Shown here piece by piece: positions 446 to 50,170 of a stretch of 61,121 nucleotides of DNA (within the stretch, counting starts at the first letter, position 1; every line of letters starts with the position of its first letter). The position numbers and the translations under genes are program-made. Where the stretch lies: contig JAJRQK010000034.1 of NCBI GenBank assembly GCA_024280295.1, positions 1 to 61,121 on the forward strand. Direction: 5' to 3'. The notes under the pieces are model-generated. The model ran no database searches and was not told the origin of the DNA. It saw only the letters and a program-made list of their open reading frames with translations. This DNA comes from Bacteroidota bacterium (lineage in GTDB: Bacteria > Bacteroidota > Bacteroidia > Flavobacteriales_D > Crocinitomicaceae).

Positions 446-3400
446 ATGAGAAACGTAATTATCACAGTATTAACACTTGCGCTATTTGGATTTATATCTT
501 ATGGCCAGGAAGTCTGGATGCACCCAAATGCAGGTCAATGGGATGAGCGTATTCTTTACAAGGTAGATTTAAGTCAAGGAGAAATGTACATCGAAAAGGA
601 TGGATTCATGTTTAACTTGCATGATGGCAAACAGAAAATGTCTCATTCACATGAAAGTGGTGAAAATCAGATAGATGAACACGCAGATGATGAAGATTTT
701 TTGGTTCATGCGATTAAATCAAAGTTCATAGGATCATCATGGGGAGGTAATATTGAACAAGGAGTACCTTCAAGTTTTTACAGAAATTACTTTATAGGAA
801 ACGATCAATCTAAATGGAAAAGTAAACAATACGCATATACTGATATTCGAATGAATGATTTCTATCCAGGAATTGACCTTCTGGTGGAAGGAAATGATGG
901 GAGTTTGAAGTATTCTTTAGTGGTTGAACCTGAGAAGTCTGCAGAGATTATCGTATTCGAATACAATGGACAATATGGTTTACGAATAGATGAAGATGGT
1001 AACCTGCGAATTAAAACACGTTTTGGTGAAATCATTGAAGAGCGCCCGGTTGCATGGGCAATTGGCCCAAATGGGAAGGAAGAGGTTGAAATCGAATTCG
1101 CGCTTGAAGGAACAAAGGTTCATTTTGAGTTTCCTGAGGGATATGATATTCAAAAAACACTTTTAATTGATCCAAGTTTGACGTTTTCGACCTTTTCGGG
1201 ATCAACGGCAGATAATTGGGGTTTTACAGCTGCACCAGATGCAAACGGAAATTTATTTGGTGGAGGTATCGTTTTTGGGACAGGATATCCACTAACTCCT
1301 GGTGCTTATGGCACTACATTTATTGGATTGATTGATCTTGGGATCACAAAATTTAACGCAGATGGTACGGCTTTGCTCTATTCAACATATATTGGCGGAT
1401 CAGGATCCGAAACACCAAACAGTATTGTAAGTTCACCAACTGGTGACTTGTATATTTTTGGAATAACTTCTTCACCGAATTTCCCAATGGCTGGTGCGCC
1501 ATATGATAATAGTTTTAATGGCGGACCGAGTATTCCTGGTGGAACTTCAAATGGTTTGGATTTCGGCAATGGATCTGATTTGTTTGTTGCGCGATTAAAT
1601 GCAACGGGAACTTCTTTACTTGCATCAACTTATGTAGGTGGTTCAGGTACTGATGGATTGAACACTTCTAGTCTTCGGTACAATTATGGAGATCAATTTA
1701 GAGGTGAAGTTATACTTGATGTTAATGGGGATGTATATATAACATCTACAACTCAGTCCTTTGATTTTCCAGTTGTACTCGGAACTCAACCTGCACTTTC
1801 AGGAACGCAAGATGCTGTGTTATTCAAGATGACTCCTGGGTTGAATACGATGATTTGGTCAACTTATTTTGGAGGAAGCGGCCAAGAAACTGGAAACGGA
1901 GTTCAAATTGCAAGTAATGGGGATGTTTATATCGCTGGTGGATCTAGTTCTGCATCAATGCCCATGTTCTCAGGAAATGATCTAACATTTAACGGCGGTC
2001 TATCTGATGGTTATGTGGCTCGTTTTAATGGAGCTAATGGATTGAATTTATCAGGAACATTTATGGGGATGAACGAATATGATCAAACGTATTTTGTTCA
2101 GTTGGATATTGACGATAAGGTCTATGTTTTAGGTCAATCTGAATCTGATTGGGGAGTTTCGCCAGGTCGTTGGGGTGTTGCTAATTCGGGGCAGTTTATT
2201 CGTAAATATGATGCTACCCTAACTACCATAGAATGGACGACCATGATTGGTGCAGGAACAGGAAGTGTTGAGATATCACCAACTGCATTCTTGGTTTCAG
2301 ATTGTTATGATATTTATCTCTCTGGATGGGGTGGAAATCTTAATCAAAATGGCCCCGCAAGTAATTCAACTACAAATGGATTCCCCGTAACTTTTGACGC
2401 TTTTCAGGCAACAACTAATGGCAGTAATTTCTATATCGCCGTGCTAGATCAAGATGCAACAGCATTGAAATATGGGACATTTATGGGCGGAGTAGCGAGT
2501 AGCTTCAACCATGTGGATGGGGGGACAAGTCGATTTGATAAATCTGGACGAATTTACCATGCTGTTTGTGGGGCTTGTAGCGGAAATCCGAATGGGTTTA
2601 CAACTACAGCAGGTGTTTGGTCTCCGCAGAATCAAAGTTCGAACTGTAATTTAGCAGCCTTTAAATTTGAATTGAGTTCAATCGATGCGATTGTGTCGAA
2701 TCCGAATCCAATTATCTGTATCCCGGATCCAGTGATATTTAATAATAATAGCGCAAATGGAAATCAATTCTTTTGGGACTTTGGAGATAACACAACATCA
2801 ACCGATGTGAATCCAACTCATTTTTATGCAAACCCTGGTGATTATACAGTTACGCTAGTAGTTTCGGATTCAAATGGTTGTTTTTCACCAGACTCTGTGA
2901 CATTTATAGTCACGATTGGTGATTTCCAAGGTGGAGTTATCCAACCTCCTAGTCCAATTTGCCCAGGTGATTCATACCAACTTGAAGCTTATGGAGGATC
3001 AACATATGAGTGGAGTCCTGCTCAGTTTTTAGATAACCCAACAATAGCAATGCCTACTGCTACGGTCAATCAAACCACGGATTTTACTGTAATAGTTTCT
3101 GACAGTTGTGGTATCGATACGGTATCTGTTACGCTTGTTGTTTATAATGATGGTGCTAATGCATCTAATGATACCAGTGTTTGTATAGGAAGCAGTGTGA
3201 ATCTTTTAGCTTCAGGCGGAGGAACGTATTCATGGAGTCCAGCTACTTATCTGAACGATCCTACAATAGCGAATCCATTGTGTACGCCACTAAATGACAT
3301 TACTTATATTATTGACATTATTTCTCCTAATGGTTGTCTATTGAGCGACACATTAGTAGTCGATGTTTTCTTTAATCCTCCTGTACCCATAATGCCTGAT

Positions 3401-41198: not shown

Positions 41199-41255
41199 AG
41201 GCTATTCACTCTATCTTTTATTGCATAAAAGGATGCCACTGCTATCTTTAACGCA
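41199..41255 (+). repeat. Dispersed palindromic repeat, copy B
   Basis: GGCTATTCACTCTATC then CTTTTATTGCATAAAAG then GATGCCACTGC and TAACGCAA. The stem is CTTTTAT/ATAAAAG. The right end reaches into the trpA stop codon. It sits between the convergent tsaB and trpA genes and may serve as their shared terminator or RNA end. Confidence 0.65.
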
Positions 41256-41985
41256 ACTCATTCAAATATTCAATTTCTTCTCCCTTCCCTACTGCCTTCA
41301 AATATGCAGATCCAATAATTGCTCCATCAGATACTGATTGAACTTTCTCTACATCTTCACTTGATTGTATTCCGAATCCTATAAACATAGGGGTGTTTCC
41401 GCAGATCTCTTTAATCTTAGCGTAACGCTTTAATCTATCATTGCTAAAATTGCTTTGCCCTCCAGTGGTTGCATTTGAAGAGACCAGGTAAACAAAACTA
41501 TTTTTGCATAATTCAGCAGTTTTCAGAATACGCTCGTTAGATGATTCGGGAGTGATTAGAAAACTGGGAAAGACTCCTTTTGACTCGAATTTTGCCTGAT
41601 AATACCGTTCGTAAATTTCGATACTAAGATCTGGAAGGATGACTGTGCTTATTCCCAATAATTGACATTCGTTTAGGAAATTATCGATTCCGAAGCTAAT
41701 AATCGGATTGAAATAGCCCATTAAAACAATTGTTAGCGTCGATTTTCGATCGTGGAGTTGCTCAAAGAGTAACGGTAGGTTCATCCCGTTGTTAATCGCA
41801 ATTTCACTTGTCGCTTGAATCGTTGGTCCATCTGCCAATGGATCCGAAAATGGAATTCCAACTTCAACAAAATCGATTCCATTCGATTCAAGCAACTCGA
41901 GTTGTTCGTTTAAGCTATCCAGTTTTGGGTATCCAGCAGTAACGAAGATGCTGATTTGCTTTTTATCTTTTTTGAATACGTTCAT
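41248..41985 (-). CDS. trpA: Tryptophan synthase alpha chain
   Basis: A 245-residue TIM barrel that splits indole-3-glycerol phosphate into indole and glyceraldehyde 3-phosphate. FVTAGYP, the catalytic Glu in [16 protein letters not shown] and its Asp are present; [10 protein letters not shown] binds phosphate near the end. About 20 residues shorter than E. coli TrpA, mainly at the N-terminus. Last gene of trpEGDCFBA; its start overlaps trpB by 4 bases, which suits the tight alpha2beta2 complex. Confidence 0.97.
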
Positions 41986-43172
41986 TTCGATTCGATATAA
42001 TGTTTCATGTCCTTATCACCTCTTCCAGAAAGATTGATGACAATAATATCATTTGATTTAATTTCGATATGCTGTAAAGCAGCTAGAGCGTGTGCACTTT
42101 CTAATGCCGGAATTATCCCTTCATTTTGCGAGAGTGATTTTGCTGCTGACAATGCTTCTTTATCAGTTACAGAAACAGTCTTTGTTCGTCCTTCTTCAAT
42201 TGAATGGGCATGCAACGGACCAATTCCAGGGTAATCTAGTCCAGCAGAAATGGAGTAGGGCTCAGTAACTTGTCCAAACTCACCTTGCATTAGTAGTGTC
42301 ATGCTTCCATGAAGAACCCCCGGAGATCCTAGAAATGATGTCGCTGCGGACTTTCCACTTTTTAATCCCAATCCTGATGCCTCAACAGCAATTAATTCAA
42401 CAGATTCTTCTTGATAGTAATGATAGAAAGCCCCCGCTGCATTGCTTCCACCACCGACACATGCAACTACTTTTGTTGGAAATTCCGATCCTGTTTTCTC
42501 TAATAGTTGACTTCTCATTTCTTGTGAAATTACCGACTGAAATAGTGCTACCATTTCTGGATAAGGGTGTGGCCCAACAACACTTCCTATTAAATAATAA
42601 GCATCAGGATGATTGATCCAATATCGAATTGCTTCGTTGGTCGCATCTTTTAGTGTCTTACTTCCACTTGTTGCAGGAATGACAGTTGCTCCTAAAAACT
42701 CCATTCGCTTCACATTTGGGGCTTGTCTTTTCATGTCAATTTCTCCCATAAAAACAACACATTCCATGTCCATTAATGCACATGCTGTTGCCGTTGCTAC
42801 TCCATGCTGACCCGCGCCTGTTTCTGCAATAATGGTTTTCTTGCCCATTTTCTTCGCCAAAAGAATCTGCCCAAGAGCATTGTTGATTTTATGTGCACCT
42901 GTGTGATTCAAATCTTCTCGTTTCAAATAGACAGTGCATTTATATTTCTTACTTAACTTCTTGGAATGATAGAGTGGAGTTGGTCTGCCCACATAATCTT
43001 TCAGTAAACAAATGAACTCTAATTTAAAGTCATCTTGTGAACAATACTGCCTAAATGCTGAATCTAATTCCTCAACATTTGGGCGCAGCAATTCTGGAAT
43101 GAATGCCCCTCCAAATTCTCCATAGAAGCCTAAGTCATCAGGTTGAGTGTACGGTTGTGCTTTTAATTGCAT
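41982..43172 (-). CDS. trpB: Tryptophan synthase beta chain
   Basis: A 396-residue PLP enzyme joining indole and serine. The PLP lysine lies in [10 protein letters not shown]; the phosphate loop is [10 protein letters not shown]; the opening [22 protein letters not shown] is typical of TrpB1. The only upstream start, ATG 43172, makes it overlap trpF by 35 bases, more than the usual 4-base coupling in this operon. Confidence 0.98.
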
Positions 43173-43752
43173 CTATAAATGTTTTTAATTCATCAATGTT
43201 TTTATCTGCTGGACTAATCTCAAACCCACTATTGAGATCTACCCCTACAAGTTTTGGGTGGTGTAATTCTTTAATCGCTTGTAGTGAGTTTGAATTGATT
43301 CCGCCACTTAAAAGAAAGGGTATTTTTCCTTTATAGAAACTTAGAATTTCCCAGTTGAACTGCTTACCAGACCCGCCATGTTGTTCCGTTTTAGTATTAA
43401 AGAGAAAGAGATCAACAAACTCTTCATAGAATGTGGTATCCGTAATTTGATCCTCTGTTTCAATTCCAAATGCTTTAATAACCTTCACATAATTCGAGAC
43501 CGATCGGCAATATTCGGGCGACTCATTTCCATGTAATTGTACATAATCGAGTGAATGCTTTACACTAAGTTTTTTCACGTTATCAAGTGGTGAATTGACA
43601 AATACACCTACTTTTTGTGCATGTCTAGTTGCAGGTGTCTTTTCAACATACCTTGGTGATTTATCATAGAGGATGAAGCCGATAAAATCAACATACTTTT
43701 CAACTTCTCGTATTTGCTGGGAATCTTTCATTCCACATACTTTTACAATCAT
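43138..43752 (-). CDS. trpF: Phosphoribosylanthranilate isomerase
   Basis: A 204-residue TIM barrel that converts phosphoribosylanthranilate to the carboxyphenylamino-deoxyribulose phosphate. KVCGM holds the catalytic Cys; YVQLHGNES and PFLLSGGIN (catalytic Asp region near [10 protein letters not shown]) are conserved. It overlaps trpC by 4 bases at its start and trpB by 35 at its end. Confidence 0.96.
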
Positions 43753-44537
43753 GCAGCATTGATTTTAGTGTGTAACGATTCGATAAATTCTTTTGGATTT
43801 TGCTGCTTAAGTATGCTCTGGCCAATCAATGCTCCGTGAAATCCACATTTTTGTAGTGCACGTAATTCGTAACCAGTTTTAATTCCCGACTCAGAGATGA
43901 ATGTCCCGTCTTTTGGTAAAAACTTGAAGAGATCGAAAGAGTTTTGAACATCTGTTTTCTGTGCATGTAGATCGCGGTTGTTAATGCCAATTACGTCAAC
44001 AAACACATTGAGTTTATAGAGTTCAGACTGACTGTGGAATTCCATGACAACTTCCATTCCTAAGCTTTGAGCAATTATGGTGAGATGTAGTGCCTCCTCT
44101 TTTGTGAGTACTTCAGCAATTAATAGAATAGCATCTGCACCAATTGCTTTTGATTCGAAGAGTTGGAACTCGTCAATAATAAACTCTTTTCGCAGAACTG
44201 GTAGAGAAGAGACTTCCTTAATGTTTAATAGGTCATCGTTTGATCCTCCGAAATAAGTAAAGTCAGTTAAACAGGAGATCGCTGATGCACCAGCTACTTC
44301 ATAATTTTTTGCCTGTTTCGCAACATCTAAATTCTCGTTAATGATTCCCGCGCTTGGTGATTTCCGTTTTATCTCAGCGATAATTCCAAATTTATTTCTC
44401 TTCAATGCCTCTTTGAGTGATTTACAACTTTTCGAGAAATACTCTGCCTGCTCTAAATCTTGATATGTGAATTTCGTTTTCAACGACTTTATCTCCTCTT
44501 TTTTTGTTGCAATAATTCTATCTAATATGGTACTCAT
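43749..44537 (-). CDS. trpC: Indole-3-glycerol-phosphate synthase
   Basis: A 262-residue TIM barrel that closes the indole ring. Catalytic residues are in IIAEIKRKSPSAG (Lys and the Ser-Pro-Ser loop), LRKEFIIDEFQ (Lys, Glu) and VIGINNRDL, with SESGIKT near the end. Not fused to trpF, unlike enterics. Six bases separate it from trpD. Confidence 0.97.
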   Translation of the reverse strand: MSTILDRIIATKKEEIKSLKTKFTYQDLEQAEYFSKSCKSLKEALKRNKFGIIAEIKRKSPSAGIINENLDVAKQAKNYEVAGASAISCLTDFTYFGGSNDDLLNIKEVSSLPVLRKEFIIDEFQLFESKAIGADAILLIAEVLTKEEALHLTIIAQSLGMEVVMEFHSQSELYKLNVFVDVIGINNRDLHAQKTDVQNSFDLFKFLPKDGTFISESGIKTGYELRALQKCGFHGALIGQSILKQQNPKEFIESLHTKINAA

Positions 44538-44543
44538 AATGTT

Positions 44544-45521
44544 CTAGTTTGAAAGTGTTTTAATCCCGTGTCCTGAATGAATGAATCCTAATGCTTCGTT
44601 ATATAGTTCTATGATTGGAGTTTCTGGATGATATAATCGTAAACCCACAGAAACATTTGCTGCTGTTACTTCATTTTGTTCTTTTGTTCCTTCTCCTTTA
44701 AGAATAGATGTTAGAATATGAGCAGCATTTTTAATACTCTTCCCTGAATTAAGTGTGGATTGATGTACTCTTTCGGTTGAGAATGAAGCCGCATTAATAA
44801 GTTCATCTCCCTGCTTACCTAAAAGTCGTGTGTCATTAGTGAGTGTGATTTCATCGTAGCCATCCATACCATAAGTGATGGTGAAATTTGTGCGGCCTTG
44901 CTGAAGAATATGTTGATATACCTTCGCTAATTCGAGTGAATAGGTTCCTGTTAATTGATAGTTGGGCTGAACTGGGTTTACCAACGGACCAAGGCAATTA
45001 AATACACTTCTAATTCCCAGGTTTCGTCTTACAGTCGCAACTTTTTTCATTGTTGGATGAAACAATGGTGCATGGAGGAAGCAGATATTTTTATCCGCTA
45101 GATTTTTTTCCAAAATCTGATTATCTGAAGTGAACTCAATCCCAATTTCTTCCAGGACATTTGATGATCCGCAAAGTGAACTAACACCATAATTCCCATG
45201 CTTGATCACTTTCTTCCCCATACCAGCAAGAACGAAAGCTGTGGTCGTCGAAATATTGAATGTGTCTTTTCCATCTCCACCTGTACCACAAAGATCAACT
45301 GCGTTTTCAGCGTCAAGTTCCACAGGTGCACAAAGTTCTAGGAGTGCAACACGCAATCCTCTTAACTCCTCCAGTTGCACTCCTCGCATTTGCATTCCAA
45401 CGAGTATTCCACTTATGGCTTCTTTTGTGTACTTCTCATCATCTATATCATAAATAAAACGTTTGGCCTCTTCGAATGATAGGTGTTCATGTGCTATTAT
45501 TTTTGAAAGTATTAACGACAT
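44544..45521 (-). CDS. trpD: Anthranilate phosphoribosyltransferase
   Basis: A 325-residue enzyme transferring phosphoribose from PRPP to anthranilate. The PRPP loop is DLCGTGGDGKDTFNIST; KHGNYGVSS and the metal/pyrophosphate region YGMDGYDEITL follow. Normal length, not fused to trpG. One base separates it from the trpG stop codon. Confidence 0.97.
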   Translation of the reverse strand: MSLILSKIIAHEHLSFEEAKRFIYDIDDEKYTKEAISGILVGMQMRGVQLEELRGLRVALLELCAPVELDAENAVDLCGTGGDGKDTFNISTTTAFVLAGMGKKVIKHGNYGVSSLCGSSNVLEEIGIEFTSDNQILEKNLADKNICFLHAPLFHPTMKKVATVRRNLGIRSVFNCLGPLVNPVQPNYQLTGTYSLELAKVYQHILQQGRTNFTITYGMDGYDEITLTNDTRLLGKQGDELINAASFSTERVHQSTLNSGKSIKNAAHILTSILKGEGTKEQNEVTAANVSVGLRLYHPETPIIELYNEALGFIHSGHGIKTLSN

Positions 45522-45522
45522 A

Positions 45523-46083
45523 TTATATGTTTATCCAGTTCGTAATTAGTGTTCTCCCTTCTGGAGTTAGGATCGATTCAGGATGAAATTGAACTCCATA
45601 GATTGGTAATTCATTGTGTTCCATCGCCATACTTTCTCCATCCAAAGTATGTGCTGTTACACGGAAATCTTTAGGTGTGTTTCCAACATGCCAGCTATGA
45701 TATCTTCCTGCTTCAAATTCAACTGGAATACCATTAAAAAGTATTGATGAGTTTGTGTGTTTTAAAGTGGAAGCCTTTCCATGGACTGCTTTTTTAGATT
45801 GCTTAATTGTTCCACCAAAAGTTTCTGCAATTGCTTGATGCCCAAGACAGACTCCTAGAATTTTTTTATTGCGGGCGAATTGTTTGATTACCTCTGTTAA
45901 TTGTCCTGCTTCTGATGGTATTCCTGGTCCTGGGGAGAGTAAAATTCCGTCTGAATCATCTATTATCGCAAAATTCAATTGATTATTTCGTTGCACATTG
46001 ATTTCGCAACCACTTTCACGCAAGTAACGAACAAGGTTGTACACAAATGAATCATAATTATCTATAACCGTTATTCGTTTCAT
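45523..46083 (-). CDS. trpG: Anthranilate synthase glutamine amidotransferase component
   Basis: A 186-residue class I glutaminase that supplies ammonia to TrpE. Nucleophile Cys79 lies in GVCLGHQAIAE; the oxyanion segment LLSPGPG and the His-Glu pair in GVQFHPESILT complete the triad. It overlaps trpE by 4 bases. In some bacteria this subunit is shared with PabB; no pabB is seen here. Confidence 0.97.
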   Translation of the reverse strand: MKRITVIDNYDSFVYNLVRYLRESGCEINVQRNNQLNFAIIDDSDGILLSPGPGIPSEAGQLTEVIKQFARNKKILGVCLGHQAIAETFGGTIKQSKKAVHGKASTLKHTNSSILFNGIPVEFEAGRYHSWHVGNTPKDFRVTAHTLDGESMAMEHNELPIYGVQFHPESILTPEGRTLITNWINI

Positions 46084-47477
46084 ACTGTTGTTACTTTTTC
46101 CGATGAAAATTGCTGATGAGTCTTCGTCATTGCTGTTCGAAGTGCGCGTAATTTATGATGTACTTCTTGTGTTTCTTTTTCCGGAATTGAATCTAAAACA
46201 ATACCTGCACCAGCTCTAAAGTGAAGTACATTATTTTTGCTTAAAAAGCTTCTGATTATGATCGCTGTGTTGATGTCTCCGTTTGCACTAATAAGGCCCA
46301 ATGCTCCTCCATAAAAATCACGTGTTGTGTCTTCATAGTGATGAATTAATTCTAATGCTTTCGGTTTTGGAGTCCCTGATAGAGTTCCTGCTGGAAAAGA
46401 ATGACTTAAGGCCTCAAATGCATTTGTTTTGTCGAGTTGTCCAGTAACTTTAGAAACGAGATGTGTTACATGACTGAAGTGTTGCACTTCCTTATACTTT
46501 TCAATTTGCACGCTTTTACAATCACGACTGAGATCATTTCTTGCCAAATCAACCAGCATTGTATGTTCTGCATTCTCTTTTGCATCATTCTTTAGAAAGT
46601 CTAGTTGGATAGCGTCTTCTTGTTCATTTCCAGTCTTTGGAATAGTTCCCGCAATTGGATGTATTTCTGCTTTGCCTGATTTAACGATGAGTTGTGCTTC
46701 TGGTGATGACCCAAATAATCGGTAAGATTCGAAATCGAAGTAGAACAAATAAGGAGAAGGATTCAATCTACGCAATTGACGGTAAACTTGAAAATCATCT
46801 CCAAAAAATGCTTGCTGAAAGGCGTTTGAAAGAACAAGCTGAAATACATCTCCTCGTTTACAATGCTCAATCCCCTTTTTCACTAATTCTGCGAATTGTT
46901 CATCAGTATATTCAGCAGTTTCTTTACCGCAAACCTCGAAAGGGAGCTCCATCAAACTATTTCGCTGAAACAAATCGTTGATTGTTTTAGACTCAAATGA
47001 TTTAGCTAAACTATTTTCTATTACTAATCCTTCATTTGTAAAGTGATCGATGATAATGATGTATTTAAAGATGAAAAGATGTAAGCTTGGAATTTCTTGA
47101 TCAGAATGAACAGAGTTGATGTGTGTTTCGTCTCTAATGTTAAATTCAAAACTAAGTCGTCCAAAGAAACCGTTCAGTTCCTCTTGTTGGAATTGAAATC
47201 CATTTAGTATTTCTTGAACCTGATCTGCGATTGGAACGTTTTCGTTTAATTGAACAGTTTGGTCACCTTTGGAAGATGAGATGGATAGGATGCCGTCGTT
47301 CAGTTGAATCTCAACAATGGGATCAAAACCAAGAATGGATTTACTGTCTTGCCGAGAATGATAATCATTGGCTTCAAGTAAACAGGCTTTCCGATAATTA
47401 TTCCGCAGCGATAAGTACAATTCTACTGGAGTGTAAATATCTGCGTTAAAGACAGTTTTTTGTGAGTATATATACAT
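46080..47477 (-). CDS. trpE: Anthranilate synthase component I
   Basis: A 465-residue chorismate-using enzyme that makes anthranilate, the first step toward tryptophan. The C-terminal catalytic part has GDVFQLVLSNAFQ, HPIAGTIPKTGNE, LVDLARNDLSR, FPAGTLSGTPKPKA and YGGALG. The N-terminal feedback site normally reads LLES; here it is LLEAND with Ala36 where Ser40 of the enteric enzyme contacts tryptophan. Start ATG 47477 lies 22 bases after the attenuator terminator, so transcription of the operon depends on read-through. Confidence 0.97.
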   Translation of the reverse strand: MYIYSQKTVFNADIYTPVELYLSLRNNYRKACLLEANDYHSRQDSKSILGFDPIVEIQLNDGILSISSSKGDQTVQLNENVPIADQVQEILNGFQFQQEELNGFFGRLSFEFNIRDETHINSVHSDQEIPSLHLFIFKYIIIIDHFTNEGLVIENSLAKSFESKTINDLFQRNSLMELPFEVCGKETAEYTDEQFAELVKKGIEHCKRGDVFQLVLSNAFQQAFFGDDFQVYRQLRRLNPSPYLFYFDFESYRLFGSSPEAQLIVKSGKAEIHPIAGTIPKTGNEQEDAIQLDFLKNDAKENAEHTMLVDLARNDLSRDCKSVQIEKYKEVQHFSHVTHLVSKVTGQLDKTNAFEALSHSFPAGTLSGTPKPKALELIHHYEDTTRDFYGGALGLISANGDINTAIIIRSFLSKNNVLHFRAGAGIVLDSIPEKETQEVHHKLRALRTAMTKTHQQFSSEKVTTV

Positions 47478-47498
47478 GATGATTGAAAAAAATGAGAC

Positions 47499-47532
47499 AA
47501 AAAAAACGACCTGTCTGATATGACAAGTCGTT
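47499..47532 (-). terminator. Attenuator terminator of the trp operon
   Basis: On the minus strand AACGACTTGTC pairs with GACAGGTCGTT around ATATCA (11 bp, one U-G pair), followed by a run of at least six further T. It lies between the leader peptide gene and trpE, in the direction of transcription. Confidence 0.9.
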
Positions 47533-47558
47533 TTAAAAATATGTGAGATAATTACATT

Positions 47559-47627
47559 TTAACGCCAGGCATACCAACTTTTTGTCGATTGCCATTGCCA
47601 GCTTGTAATATGTGTTGTTCTAAACAT
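47559..47627 (-). CDS. trpL: trp operon leader peptide, four Trp in 22 residues
   Basis: ATG 47627 to TAA 47559. The peptide starts MFRTTHITS, then Trp10-Gln-Trp12, and ends SWYAWR with Trp18 and Trp21. Tryptophan is the rarest amino acid, so four codons in 22 are a clear sensor signature. The codons for residues 14-18 contain GACAA and GTTG, which can pair with TTGTC and CGAC of the terminator 5' arm. A ribosome stalled at Trp10-Trp12 would leave that segment free to form an antiterminator; a ribosome that reaches the stop would cover it and let the terminator form. This is classical ribosome-mediated attenuation. About 25 bases of leader precede it if the TAGGTTTT box (47657-47664) is the promoter. 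Confidence 0.85.
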   Translation of the reverse strand: MFRTTHITSWQWQSTKSWYAWR

Positions 47628-47639
47628 CTCTACAAATAT

Positions 47640-47683
47640 TTCAATTATTTTTCCATAAAACCTACGATTATTCAATTATTTTT
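47640..47683. promoter_or_regulatory. Divergent promoter region with a 13-base direct repeat
   Basis: TTCAATTATTTTT occurs at 47640-47652 and again at 47671-47683, 31 bases apart (about three helical turns). On the minus strand TAGGTTTT at 47657-47664 is one base off TAnnTTTG and is my best candidate -7 box for trpL. For the plus strand, TCCCTTTG at 47686-47693 is one base off. Confidence 0.4.
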
Positions 47684-47701
47684 TTTCCCTTTGTACTTCA
47701 A

Positions 47702-47749
47702 ATGATGATAATCGAAATATATAATTGGCAATGGAACAACTTAAATTAA
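47702..47749 (+). CDS. Leader peptide of the DAHP synthase operon, two Trp in 15 residues
   Basis: ATG 47702 to TAA 47747-47749 encodes MMIIEIYNWQWNNLN. The Trp-Gln-Trp core is the same as in trpL on the other strand. A strong terminator follows 36 bases after the stop and 25 bases before the DAHP synthase gene. The parallel layout makes it a Trp-sensing attenuator leader. I could not find a convincing antiterminator pairing by eye. Confidence 0.75.
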   Translation: MMIIEIYNWQWNNLN

Positions 47750-47785
47750 GTGCGTTCGGATCAATTGTGAAAACAAAATAAATGG

Positions 47786-47816
47786 AAGTCCTGGCGTTAT
47801 TGTCAGGACTTTTTTT
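47786..47816 (+). terminator. Attenuator terminator before the DAHP synthase gene
   Basis: AAGTCCTGGC pairs with GTCAGGACTT (one G-U pair) around GTTATT, followed by a run of T. It lies upstream of the structural gene in the direction of transcription, so it is an attenuator, not the end of an operon. Confidence 0.88.
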
Positions 47817-47841
47817 GTGAATTAATAGTAGATTTAGAAAG

Positions 47842-48939
47842 ATGAGTTTTGCCCAAAAAATAAAGAACGGAAATCGACCATTTACGGTTGCTGGACCGTG
47901 CAGTGCTGAGAGTGAAGAACAGGTATTGAAAATTTGTAAACAGATTGCAACTAACGAGTCTGTTCAATTATTACGCGCTGGAATTTGGAAACCTCGAACT
48001 CGACCGAATAGTTTTGAAGGGTTGGGAGCAATCGCGCTTCCTTGGCTTGTTCGCGCAGGTAAAGAAAATAACCTTCCTGTTACAACTGAGGTTGCAAATA
48101 AGAAGCATGTTGAATTGGCATTAGCAGCTGGTGTTGATGTATTGTGGATTGGAGCAAGAACCACAGTAAACCCATTTGCGGTTCAAGAAATTGCGGATGC
48201 TGTTAAAGGAATTGACATCCCCGTGATGATTAAAAATCCAGTGAATCCTGATTTGCAATTATGGCTTGGAGCATTTGAACGATTTGAGAACGTTGGAATA
48301 ACTGATTTGACAGCAATTCACCGAGGTTTTTCAGTGTATAATCATCCGAGATACAGAAATGTTCCAAGTTGGGAGATCCCAATTGCATTGAATGAAAACC
48401 GTCCTGATTTACCAATAATATGCGATCCAAGTCATATCACTGGCAATCGTGGTCTATTGCTAGAAGTGAGTCAAAAAGCAATGGATTTGAATTTTGATGG
48501 ATTGATGATTGAAACACATCCAAATCCAAATGAAGCATGGTCGGATGCAGCTCAACAAGTTACTGCTGACGGATTAAAAAGTATTCTTGATCAACTTGTT
48601 TTGAGATCAAAAGAAGTCTCTCGTGAAGTTGAAATTGTGCTGGAAGAATTGAGGTCAGATGTGAAACTTCTCGATGATCAACTGTTTGATTTGCTAGGAG
48701 CTCGCATGAAATTGAGCGAAGATGTTGGTCGATTAAAACGAGAGAATAACATTACGATTTTACAACAAGAACATTGGACAAAAGTAATTGCCGAGCGTAT
48801 CGCAAGTCGAGGTGATTATAGGCTCACACAAAATTTCGTACGACAATTTATGGATGCAATTCACTTAGAGTCAATCCGTCATCAAACTAAAGTAATGAAC
48901 CCAGAAACTGGATCAAAAGAGAATGGAAAAAAGAGTTAA
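47842..48939 (+). CDS. aroG: Bifunctional DAHP synthase / chorismate mutase
   Basis: A 365-residue fusion. Residues about 1-260 are a type I-beta (KDO8P-like) 3-deoxy-7-phosphoheptulonate synthase: FTVAGPCSAES, LLRAGIWKPRTRPNSFEG, IGARTTVNPFAVQEI and ICDPSHITGNR, the entry step to the shikimate pathway. About 270-355 is an AroQ-class chorismate mutase (LRSDVKLLDDQLFDLLGARM, then EDVGRLKRENN), which makes prephenate and may also serve as an allosteric domain. This order (DAHP synthase first) is common in Bacteroidota. Expression is predicted to be attenuated by tryptophan. The end overlaps aroA by 17 bases. Confidence 0.95.
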   Translation: MSFAQKIKNGNRPFTVAGPCSAESEEQVLKICKQIATNESVQLLRAGIWKPRTRPNSFEGLGAIALPWLVRAGKENNLPVTTEVANKKHVELALAAGVDVLWIGARTTVNPFAVQEIADAVKGIDIPVMIKNPVNPDLQLWLGAFERFENVGITDLTAIHRGFSVYNHPRYRNVPSWEIPIALNENRPDLPIICDPSHITGNRGLLLEVSQKAMDLNFDGLMIETHPNPNEAWSDAAQQVTADGLKSILDQLVLRSKEVSREVEIVLEELRSDVKLLDDQLFDLLGARMKLSEDVGRLKRENNITILQQEHWTKVIAERIASRGDYRLTQNFVRQFMDAIHLESIRHQTKVMNPETGSKENGKKS

Positions 48940-50170
48940 ACAAGGTGAATATTCGGGTGTTATTACCATTCCTTCTTCTAAAAGTGATGGTCAACGTGCA
49001 ATTCTTGCAGCTTCATTAAGTTGTGTTGAAACTGAACTAGTTGGAATTGGTAACAGTAATGATGAGCATAGAATGCTCGAAAATATTCAGAAACTTGGTG
49101 CAACAATTCAATTTATTACGGGAGAGATCACGATCATTAAAGGAGTCGAAAAATTTCCTTCAGAATTAGCTTTAAATGTTGGTGAAAGTGGACTTGGTGT
49201 TCGGCTGATCACTACTATCTGTGCAGCGCATAAAGGAATATTCAACATAAATGGGGAAGGTTCATTACTTCTTCGACCGCAGAATTTTTTTGAAGAACAT
49301 TTACCCAAATTAGGGGCAGAAATAACCTCCAATCAAGGGCGATTACCACTTGAGATTGTAGGACCAATGACAGGAGGAGCGATTGATGTTGATGGAAGTA
49401 TGTCATCTCAGTTTTTATCTGGTTTATTGATGTCGTTGCCATTGATTGATCAAGATACAATGCTCAACGTTAAGGATCTGAAGAGTATCCCTTATGTGGA
49501 AATGACGCTCAATACACTTCAACTTTTCGGGATTGAAATCGAACATGATAATTTTGAACGCTTTGAAATTAAGGGAGGTCAGAAATATCAATGTCATTCC
49601 TATGAAATTGAACGCGATTGGAGTTCGGCTAGTTATTGGCTCGTTGCTGCGGCACTTGATCAGCCAATAGTTGTTCAAGGATTGAGTTTATCGAGCTTGC
49701 AAGCTGATGTCGCATTATTGGATGCGTTGAATGTCGCAGGATGCATGATTTCTTATGACGAAGGTGTCTTATTAATTGATGGTGAAAATCGGAAGGCATT
49801 TGAATTTGATGCTACTCACTGTCCTGATTTATTCCCTGCATTGGTCACCTTTGCGACTTTTTGTAATGGAATTACGGCAATTTCTGGAGTTCATCGATTG
49901 GCAAACAAAGAAAGTGATCGTGGAATTGCGTTGCAGATGGAATTCGGAAAGTTAGGGGTGAGTATTGAGTTGAATGGTAACATCATGCGTGTACATGGAG
50001 GTTCAACTTTGAAGTCAGTTTCAGTAGATGCCCATAACGATCATAGAATTGCGATGTGTTTGGCAATTGCAGGAACATTAATCGAAGGAGGTCTGACAAT
50101 TACGGGTGCGGAATCAGTTGCAAAGAGTTATCCTGCTTTCTGGGATGATCTCGAAGGACTCATTTCCTAA
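48923..50170 (+). CDS. aroA: 3-phosphoshikimate 1-carboxyvinyltransferase (EPSP synthase)
   Basis: A 415-residue enzyme joining shikimate 3-phosphate and PEP, the sixth shikimate step. ITIPSSKSDGQRAILAASL is the N-terminal active-site segment, ALNVGESGLGVRLITTICAA corresponds to the usual NAGTA/GT region, and DHRIAMCLAIAG is the C-terminal signature. The NAGTAMR block is altered to NVGESGLGVR, a divergent form that is seen in Flavobacteriia. Translationally coupled to the DAHP synthase-chorismate mutase gene by a 17-base overlap. Confidence 0.95.
   Translation: MEKRVKQGEYSGVITIPSSKSDGQRAILAASLSCVETELVGIGNSNDEHRMLENIQKLGATIQFITGEITIIKGVEKFPSELALNVGESGLGVRLITTICAAHKGIFNINGEGSLLLRPQNFFEEHLPKLGAEITSNQGRLPLEIVGPMTGGAIDVDGSMSSQFLSGLLMSLPLIDQDTMLNVKDLKSIPYVEMTLNTLQLFGIEIEHDNFERFEIKGGQKYQCHSYEIERDWSSASYWLVAAALDQPIVVQGLSLSSLQADVALLDALNVAGCMISYDEGVLLIDGENRKAFEFDATHCPDLFPALVTFATFCNGITAISGVHRLANKESDRGIALQMEFGKLGVSIELNGNIMRVHGGSTLKSVSVDAHNDHRIAMCLAIAGTLIEGGLTITGAESVAKSYPAFWDDLEGLIS

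Follow-up and report, generated by a model that had tools for sequence, protein, structure and literature searches.

Two divergent leader-terminator units between trpE and a DAHP synthase gene of a Bacteroidota genome: a very probable tryptophan attenuator and a probable second one

The trp leader of Escherichia coli combines Trp codons, alternative 1:2, 2:3 and 3:4 pairings and an intrinsic terminator with a Shine-Dalgarno site and a comparatively long 5' UTR. Attenuators from Bacteroidetes are reportedly among those that may be included in the comparative studies of Vitreschak et al. 2004 and Lopatovskaya et al. 2010. In this phylum, an element located before trpE is catalogued in Rfam as RF01692 (“Bacteroid-trp, Bacteroidete tryptophan peptide leader RNA”). 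It is listed by Weinberg et al. 2010 (PMC2864571), and the discussion of a paper on Flavobacterium psychrophilum likens it to the attenuator of E. coli (PMC6414381); a further paper on this species mentions clues for leader-peptide attenuation ahead of amino-acid operons (PMC9723704). For DAHP synthase the nearest precedent comes from Corynebacterium glutamicum, in which, as summarized in PMC11802643, the aromatic-codon leader of the AroR-aroF attenuator (Neshat et al. 2014) controls the DAHP synthase operon.

The DNA analysed here, referred to as the window, is a stretch of 61,121 nucleotides from a member of the Crocinitomicaceae (contig JAJRQK010000034.1). On its minus strand, 47477-47640 is very probably a ribosome-mediated trp attenuator, and on its plus strand 47686-47812 is probably a second one of the same design, acting on an operon of DAHP synthase/chorismate mutase and aroA.

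The trp operon leader and its relation to catalogued elements

The trp side of the locus contains the following features:
47559..47627, minus strand: trpE leader open reading frame, 22 codons, MFRTTHITSWQWQSTKSWYAWR and stop, with Trp at positions 10, 12, 18 and 21
47600-47598, 47594-47592, 47576-47574 and 47567-47565, minus strand: the four leader Trp codons
47503..47534, minus strand: intrinsic terminator of the trp operon, with 13 pairs, a 6-nt loop and then a T run
46080..47477, minus strand: trpE, gene 1 of the putatively attenuated operon (Pfam Anth_synt_I_N and Chorismate_bind)
41248..46083, minus strand: trpG, trpD, trpC, trpF, trpB and trpA, in the same direction as trpE

A sequence-only reading of this region had proposed a 22-residue leader with four Trp residues, an intrinsic terminator and then trpE. 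Both parts are found where it placed them: the frame is read from 47627 to 47559, and the hairpin at 47534-47503 lies between it and the trpE start at 47477. The same reading knew of no attenuation described for this group and was mistaken in this, as the element is that of RF01692. The trpE unit is therefore not new, having been catalogued under this accession and present in the literature since 2010.

The RF01692 model matches the window over its full length (1-131) with 27.4 bits, the cut-off being 49; on account of this score the window is not formally filed under the family. Among 13 same-genus loci, three (L090, L092 and L091; 58.2, 51.9 and 51.8 bits as a set) exceed the cut-off, four lie below it (46.0, 45.3, 34.8 and 32.0 bits) and six have no match up to E 10; elsewhere the model attained its cut-off for 2 of 20 loci in one set and for 6 of 20 regions in another. 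The window unit shares with RF01692 its site before trpE at the head of the trp operon, its short Trp leader followed by a terminator and its phylum, and can be aligned with the three accepted relatives; it differs in having WQW rather than WWW and in scoring below the cut-off. Judged by position and by this alignment, it is a diverged counterpart of RF01692, that is, the same element. The enteric model RF00513 (Trp_leader) has no match in the window up to E 10, and L091 is the only relative with a listed match (22.4 bits, cut-off 41). With the E. coli attenuator itself, the unit shares the Trp codons, the 1:2, 2:3 and 3:4 alternatives and the intrinsic terminator.

Conservation and alternative pairings of the trpE unit

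Upstream regions of trpE were searched with a caller that requires an open reading frame containing W-W or W-x-W, then a terminator. Of 148 genomes in a phylum sample, 111, among them that of the window itself, matched the window trpE with E 1e-60 or lower, and the upstream regions of 100 of the 110 other trpE places were taken; seven C-terminal-only matches together with G172, G179 and G103 were left out. The unit was called in 71 of the 100: in all 32 regions of the same class, which represent seven families, and in 39 of 68 from other classes, where seven further regions hold a W-run frame for which no terminator was called. One of the 71 (G162) is doubtful, as its terminator overlaps the leader. 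No unit was called before trpE in any of the 21 regions from families f26 (0/10), f21 (0/4), f37 (0/4) and f27 (0/3). The trp terminator alone is not above chance, a simple scan finding one in 46800-48200 against a mean of 0.9 in shuffles. The combination of leader and terminator is beyond chance, since the stricter caller, which gave the 71 real units, gave none in 500 dinucleotide shuffles (43 of them with the frame alone) and none in 100 reverse strands. This distribution suggests that the trpE switch occurs generally within the class and that its range exceeds the one given by the Rfam model.

A set of 86 regions, biased towards relatives and composed of the best 80 of 362 relatives, the window and five more trpE loci, yielded the unit in 77. 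Among the misses, L018, L034 and L073 have only 18, 56 and 182 nt upstream; L062, L064, L079 and L082 have no unit within 450 nt; L039 has a leader and no terminator; and L066 has both parts, its terminator being cut off by the stretch used. L101 and L102, which were left out of the 86, both proved to have leader and terminator when checked, and the counts are unchanged. A search of 33 same-genus genomes showed the unit in 14 of the 14 that hold a window-type trpE. Close relatives that keep the terminator and lose the Trp frame, the case which the earlier reading held would speak against attenuation, were sought and none was found in these 14. Alignment of the gap in relatives, a check that it had proposed, shows conserved Trp codons and, in the terminator, compensatory change.

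Several of the same-genus genomes in which a window-type trpE is absent are listed as 98-99% complete, and Trp synthesis has likely been lost repeatedly within the genus. Five Marivirga loci (L042, L043, L044, L045 and L053, one of them from a Marivirga MAG) carry two Trp leader-terminator units in tandem before trpE; TAnnTTTG is absent before the second leader in all five, which suggests that a single transcript is checked twice in succession. Another MAG has a SAM riboswitch close to its trp locus (L077, 2550-2656, minus strand, 74.5 bits), and a His-codon pattern has 72 matches in the window's own genome.

The alternative pairings are predicted to involve two further elements:
47568..47594, minus strand: 1:2 (protector) hairpin, codons 12-20, −9.5 kcal/mol, with 79.3% of cells paired over 14 sequences
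47561..47576, minus strand: antiterminator 5' strand, from codon 18 to the stop, with the terminator 5' arm and loop (47532-47516) as partner

Folding of the window RNA, under an assumed ribosome footprint of 13 nt from the A-site codon, gave an antiterminator of −10.5 kcal/mol with the ribosome at Trp10 or Trp12, and nothing stable with the ribosome at Trp18, Trp21 or the stop codon (−0.5, 0 and 0). The untranslated RNA forms both the 1:2 hairpin and the terminator. For the complete transcript, stability favours the terminator (−17.4) over the antiterminator state (−14.2 with its 3' arm left single), so that timing must decide the outcome and the switch has to be a kinetic one. Across the loci, the median distance from the first Trp codon to the beginning of the pairing segment is 24 nt; the segment stops a median of 3 nt short of the last base of the stop codon, and the median spacer to the terminator is 25 nt. 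Attenuation needs a geometry of this kind.

Covariation within the genus was assessed on an alignment of 14 sequences (the window, 12 same-genus relatives and L016). In the terminator, 6 of 13 pairs have changed on both sides and 96.1% of cells are paired. The score of the codon 18-22 pairing is reached by 4 of 500 shuffles, and it contains only two pairs with two-sided change, a figure that 234 of 500 shuffles reach; this pairing is weakly supported within the genus. The earlier reading had assigned the competing strand to codons 14-18, pairing GACAA with TTGTC and GTTG with CGAC. These pairings are indeed present, forming in 85.7% of cells, but they show no covariation, their score being reached by 176 of 500 shuffles. 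The idea, taken from the sister locus L004, that GACAA:TTGTC is lost in relatives is ruled out by the same percentage.

A clearer signal was obtained across lineages. Among 25 cluster representatives, the leader 3' segment pairs with the terminator 5' arm and loop at a native mean of −11.3 kcal/mol, compared with −8.3 for permuted partners, and none of 10,000 permutations reaches the native value. Control segments show no match, with 3904 (reversed), 5671 (shuffled) and 2009 (pre-Trp) of 10,000 permutations reaching theirs. In the phylum sample (36 clusters, G162 being dropped for its short segment) native pairing also beats all permutations; the reversed control there is likewise below its permutations (0/10,000), so that part of the signal from this sample is not specific pairing. 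Once composition is removed, real segments remain at 0 of 10,000 in both sets, and reversed segments at 3194 (25 clusters) and 247 (phylum sample) of 10,000. For the window taken alone, native pairing of arm and loop is no better than swapped ones (rank 0.51; whole hairpin, 0.067). The 3' part of the leader and the terminator are thus matched to each other across lineages. Folding and this cross-lineage covariation, the within-genus signal being weak, point to an antiterminator that would be freed by stalling at the Trp codons and masked at the stop.

A divergent leader and terminator before the DAHP synthase gene

The 364-bp intergenic region between trpE and the DAHP gene contains, in addition to the trp unit, a second one that the sequence-only reading had not included. 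Its features are:
47702..47749, plus strand: second leader open reading frame, MMIIEIYNWQWNNLN and stop, with Tyr7 at 47720-47722, Trp9 at 47726-47728 and Trp11 at 47732-47734
47752..47761, plus strand: candidate antiterminator 5' strand, directly after the leader stop, with its partner at 47788-47797
47785..47812, plus strand: second intrinsic terminator, its T run partly within the stem
47842..48939, plus strand: fusion of DAHP synthase and chorismate mutase, head-to-head with trpE
48923..50170, plus strand: aroA (EPSP synthase), overlapping the preceding gene

Thirty DAHP loci from the genus and from relatives were screened by script for a W-x-W leader. It was identified in 11, the window included, and all 11 belong to genomes where the DAHP gene faces trpE; the other 19 loci have none. 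A looser script added a W-W leader in G003, so that paired Trp codons precede the DAHP gene in 12 of 15 head-to-head genomes. The remaining three have weaker mixed-aromatic candidates, each with a terminator: FFYWY within SSFFYWYGS in G004 (L133) and FDFW within SNFDFWCS in G009 (L132), both about 300-420 nt before DAHP synthase and the former with a small ORF between unit and gene, and in G006 a candidate seen by eye with one Phe, one Trp and one Tyr. In the 11 script-called leaders the middle residue of W-x-W varies (Q, L, F or S) and both Trp are kept, a Tyr stands one or two residues ahead of the Trp pair in 8, and TTTG occurs 8-12 nt before the start used in all 11. The script called a terminator in 9 of these units, and G025 and G020 have an imperfect one, seen by eye only. 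The window hairpin is found by our own caller and is unlisted in the simple terminator scan, we suppose because part of the T run is taken up in its longest stem.

Of 40 DAHP regions from other members of the order and class, none has a Trp-run leader with a terminator; from one list of 51 DAHP places, 20 were taken for analysis. The segment just past the leader stop fits the hairpin arm, with 677 of 10,000 permutations reaching the native pairing, which is not significant; hairpin and pairing segment differ between relatives, and it is for the trpE unit that complementarity matched by lineage is shown. At the DAHP leader, Rfam gave chance-level matches only, of which Phe_leader, with 23.1 bits (E 0.16; cut-off 55), is the most similar in type, and RF01692 was not listed. 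In the papers searched, we found no description of a DAHP attenuator in Bacteroidota. Like AroR, the plus-strand unit is an aromatic-codon leader with a terminator before DAHP synthase, and the two would work alike, with homology not claimed. AroR, as its description gives it, has Phe-Tyr-Phe, whereas the window leader has Tyr-x-Trp-x-Trp, belongs to another phylum and stands head-to-head with a trp attenuator.

The two window leaders share Trp-Gln-Trp (TGG CAA TGG), at 47592-47600 on the minus strand and 47726-47734 on the plus strand. The tripeptide is also present in both leaders of the sister genome G016 (L004/L114), and among other relatives WW or WWW predominates in the trpE leader and W-L/F/S-W in that of DAHP synthase. 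The shared WQW reflects either conversion between the leaders or coincidence. In another family of the class, a short frame, MNWHKAYFFYYSPSRD, followed by a terminator precedes DAHP synthase in L265 (G225) and is possibly an independent Phe/Tyr attenuator of this gene.

Promoters, alternative explanations and proposed mechanism

Promoters were sought as TAHHTTTG, the −7 element of the phylum, and each unit has a candidate:
47633..47640, minus strand: −7-like element of the trp unit, AATATTTG, whose first base differs from TAHHTTTG
47686..47693, plus strand: −7-like element of the second unit, TCCCTTTG, without the A of TAHHTTTG; predicted 5' UTR 3-4 nt

The trp element lies 5 nt from the leader ATG and would place the transcript start at 47628-47627, which, unlike the E. 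coli leader, leaves a predicted 5' UTR of 0-1 nt. Among the called leaders, 37 of 77 (relatives) and 23 of 71 (phylum sample) have TAHHTTTG ending 3-12 nt ahead of a start codon in frame, compared with 0.3% and 0.1% of random upstream positions; for the relaxed NAHHTTTG the figures are 57 of 77 and 25 of 71, compared with 1.5% and 1.1%. Most leaders of the phylum sample thus show no −7 motif of this type. In Flavobacterium johnsoniae, transcription begins 4-5 nt past the −7 element, with a mean 5' UTR of 33 nt (PMC6847099). Leaders with a visible promoter element are accordingly predicted to have 5' UTRs of about 0-6 nt. A sigma-70 scan was uninformative, since it returned a shuffle-level count (6 sites; shuffles, 4.5) and is built on a consensus other than that of this phylum.

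That trpE of this Bacteroidota genome is under ribosome-mediated attenuation, the central proposal of the earlier reading, is well supported by conservation, covariation and geometry. Its terminator-antiterminator architecture, taken alone, would also fit a tryptophan-binding riboswitch, a TRAP site or a T-box with an incidental reading frame. Rfam matches in the window all stay below the gathering scores of their families, 47400-47900 has no riboswitch or T-box match up to E 10, and Trp runs recur in frame although the flanking RNA diverges; we regard this explanation as the most improbable of those considered. It is hardly more probable that the leader peptide acts in its own right, as a stable small protein, and attenuation is secondary, as has been proposed for peTrpL of Sinorhizobium (PMC7298713). 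The residues beyond Trp that are common to the genus and the wide recurrence of NTNWWW agree with such a role, but the codons that follow the Trp run form the pairing segment, this segment and the terminator are matched across lineages, and outside the genus the peptide varies in both length and sequence.

For the plus strand the question is whether only the trpE unit attenuates, the Trp-x-Trp frame being a chance or decayed ORF and the hairpin belonging to something else. The non-significant covariation, the hairpin missed by the simple scan, the variation of hairpin and pairing segment among relatives, and the scarcity of such leaders (0 of 40 DAHP genes of order and class; 19 of 30 loci without W-x-W) all favour this. 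Yet the frame is kept in the head-to-head same-genus genomes, by both scripts, TTTG keeps its place before all 11 starts, both Trp remain as the residue between them changes, and G004, G009 and G006 still have mixed-aromatic candidates with terminators. We therefore consider a lone trpE attenuator unlikely, if clearly less so than the two explanations above, and favour two attenuators of the same design.

From these sequences we infer stalling, control of termination and the behaviour of the second unit as follows. A ribosome would load on the transcript at its 5' end, or close to it, and translate the trp leader. When charged tRNA-Trp is scarce, it would stall at Trp10/Trp12, leaving codons 18-22 free to pair with the emerging 5' arm and loop of the terminator; this antiterminator would pre-empt the terminator hairpin, and trpEGDCFBA would be transcribed. 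When Trp is plentiful, the ribosome would reach the stop codon and cover codons 18-22, so that the terminator forms. Without translation, the 1:2 hairpin would hold the codon 18-22 segment, and transcription would stop as well. The second unit would read mainly Trp codons, probably also Tyr or Phe codons, and pathway entry and the Trp branch could thereby be matched to aminoacyl-tRNA supply from one intergenic region.

The trpE unit is ordinary in kind and already catalogued; what is noteworthy is the second unit, together with the predicted near-leaderless geometry and the wide distribution. A broader interpretation, for and against which the arguments seem to us evenly poised, is that two divergent attenuators within 364 bp tie the first aromatic step and the Trp branch to aminoacyl-tRNA supply, that lineages re-tune the DAHP codons (Y-x-W-x-W, FFYWY, FDFW), that both leaders are near-leaderless and that several classes of the phylum, at the least, inherited the trpE unit from a common ancestor. 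If the DAHP unit works as proposed, it provides a second aromatic control point, so far only where the DAHP gene faces trpE. If the trpE switch acts as proposed, stalled-ribosome attenuation takes place in a phylum whose translation starts without Shine-Dalgarno pairing, often from almost leaderless leaders; on the broader interpretation, near-leaderless translation would help explain tight ribosome-polymerase coupling in a phylum without Shine-Dalgarno sites.
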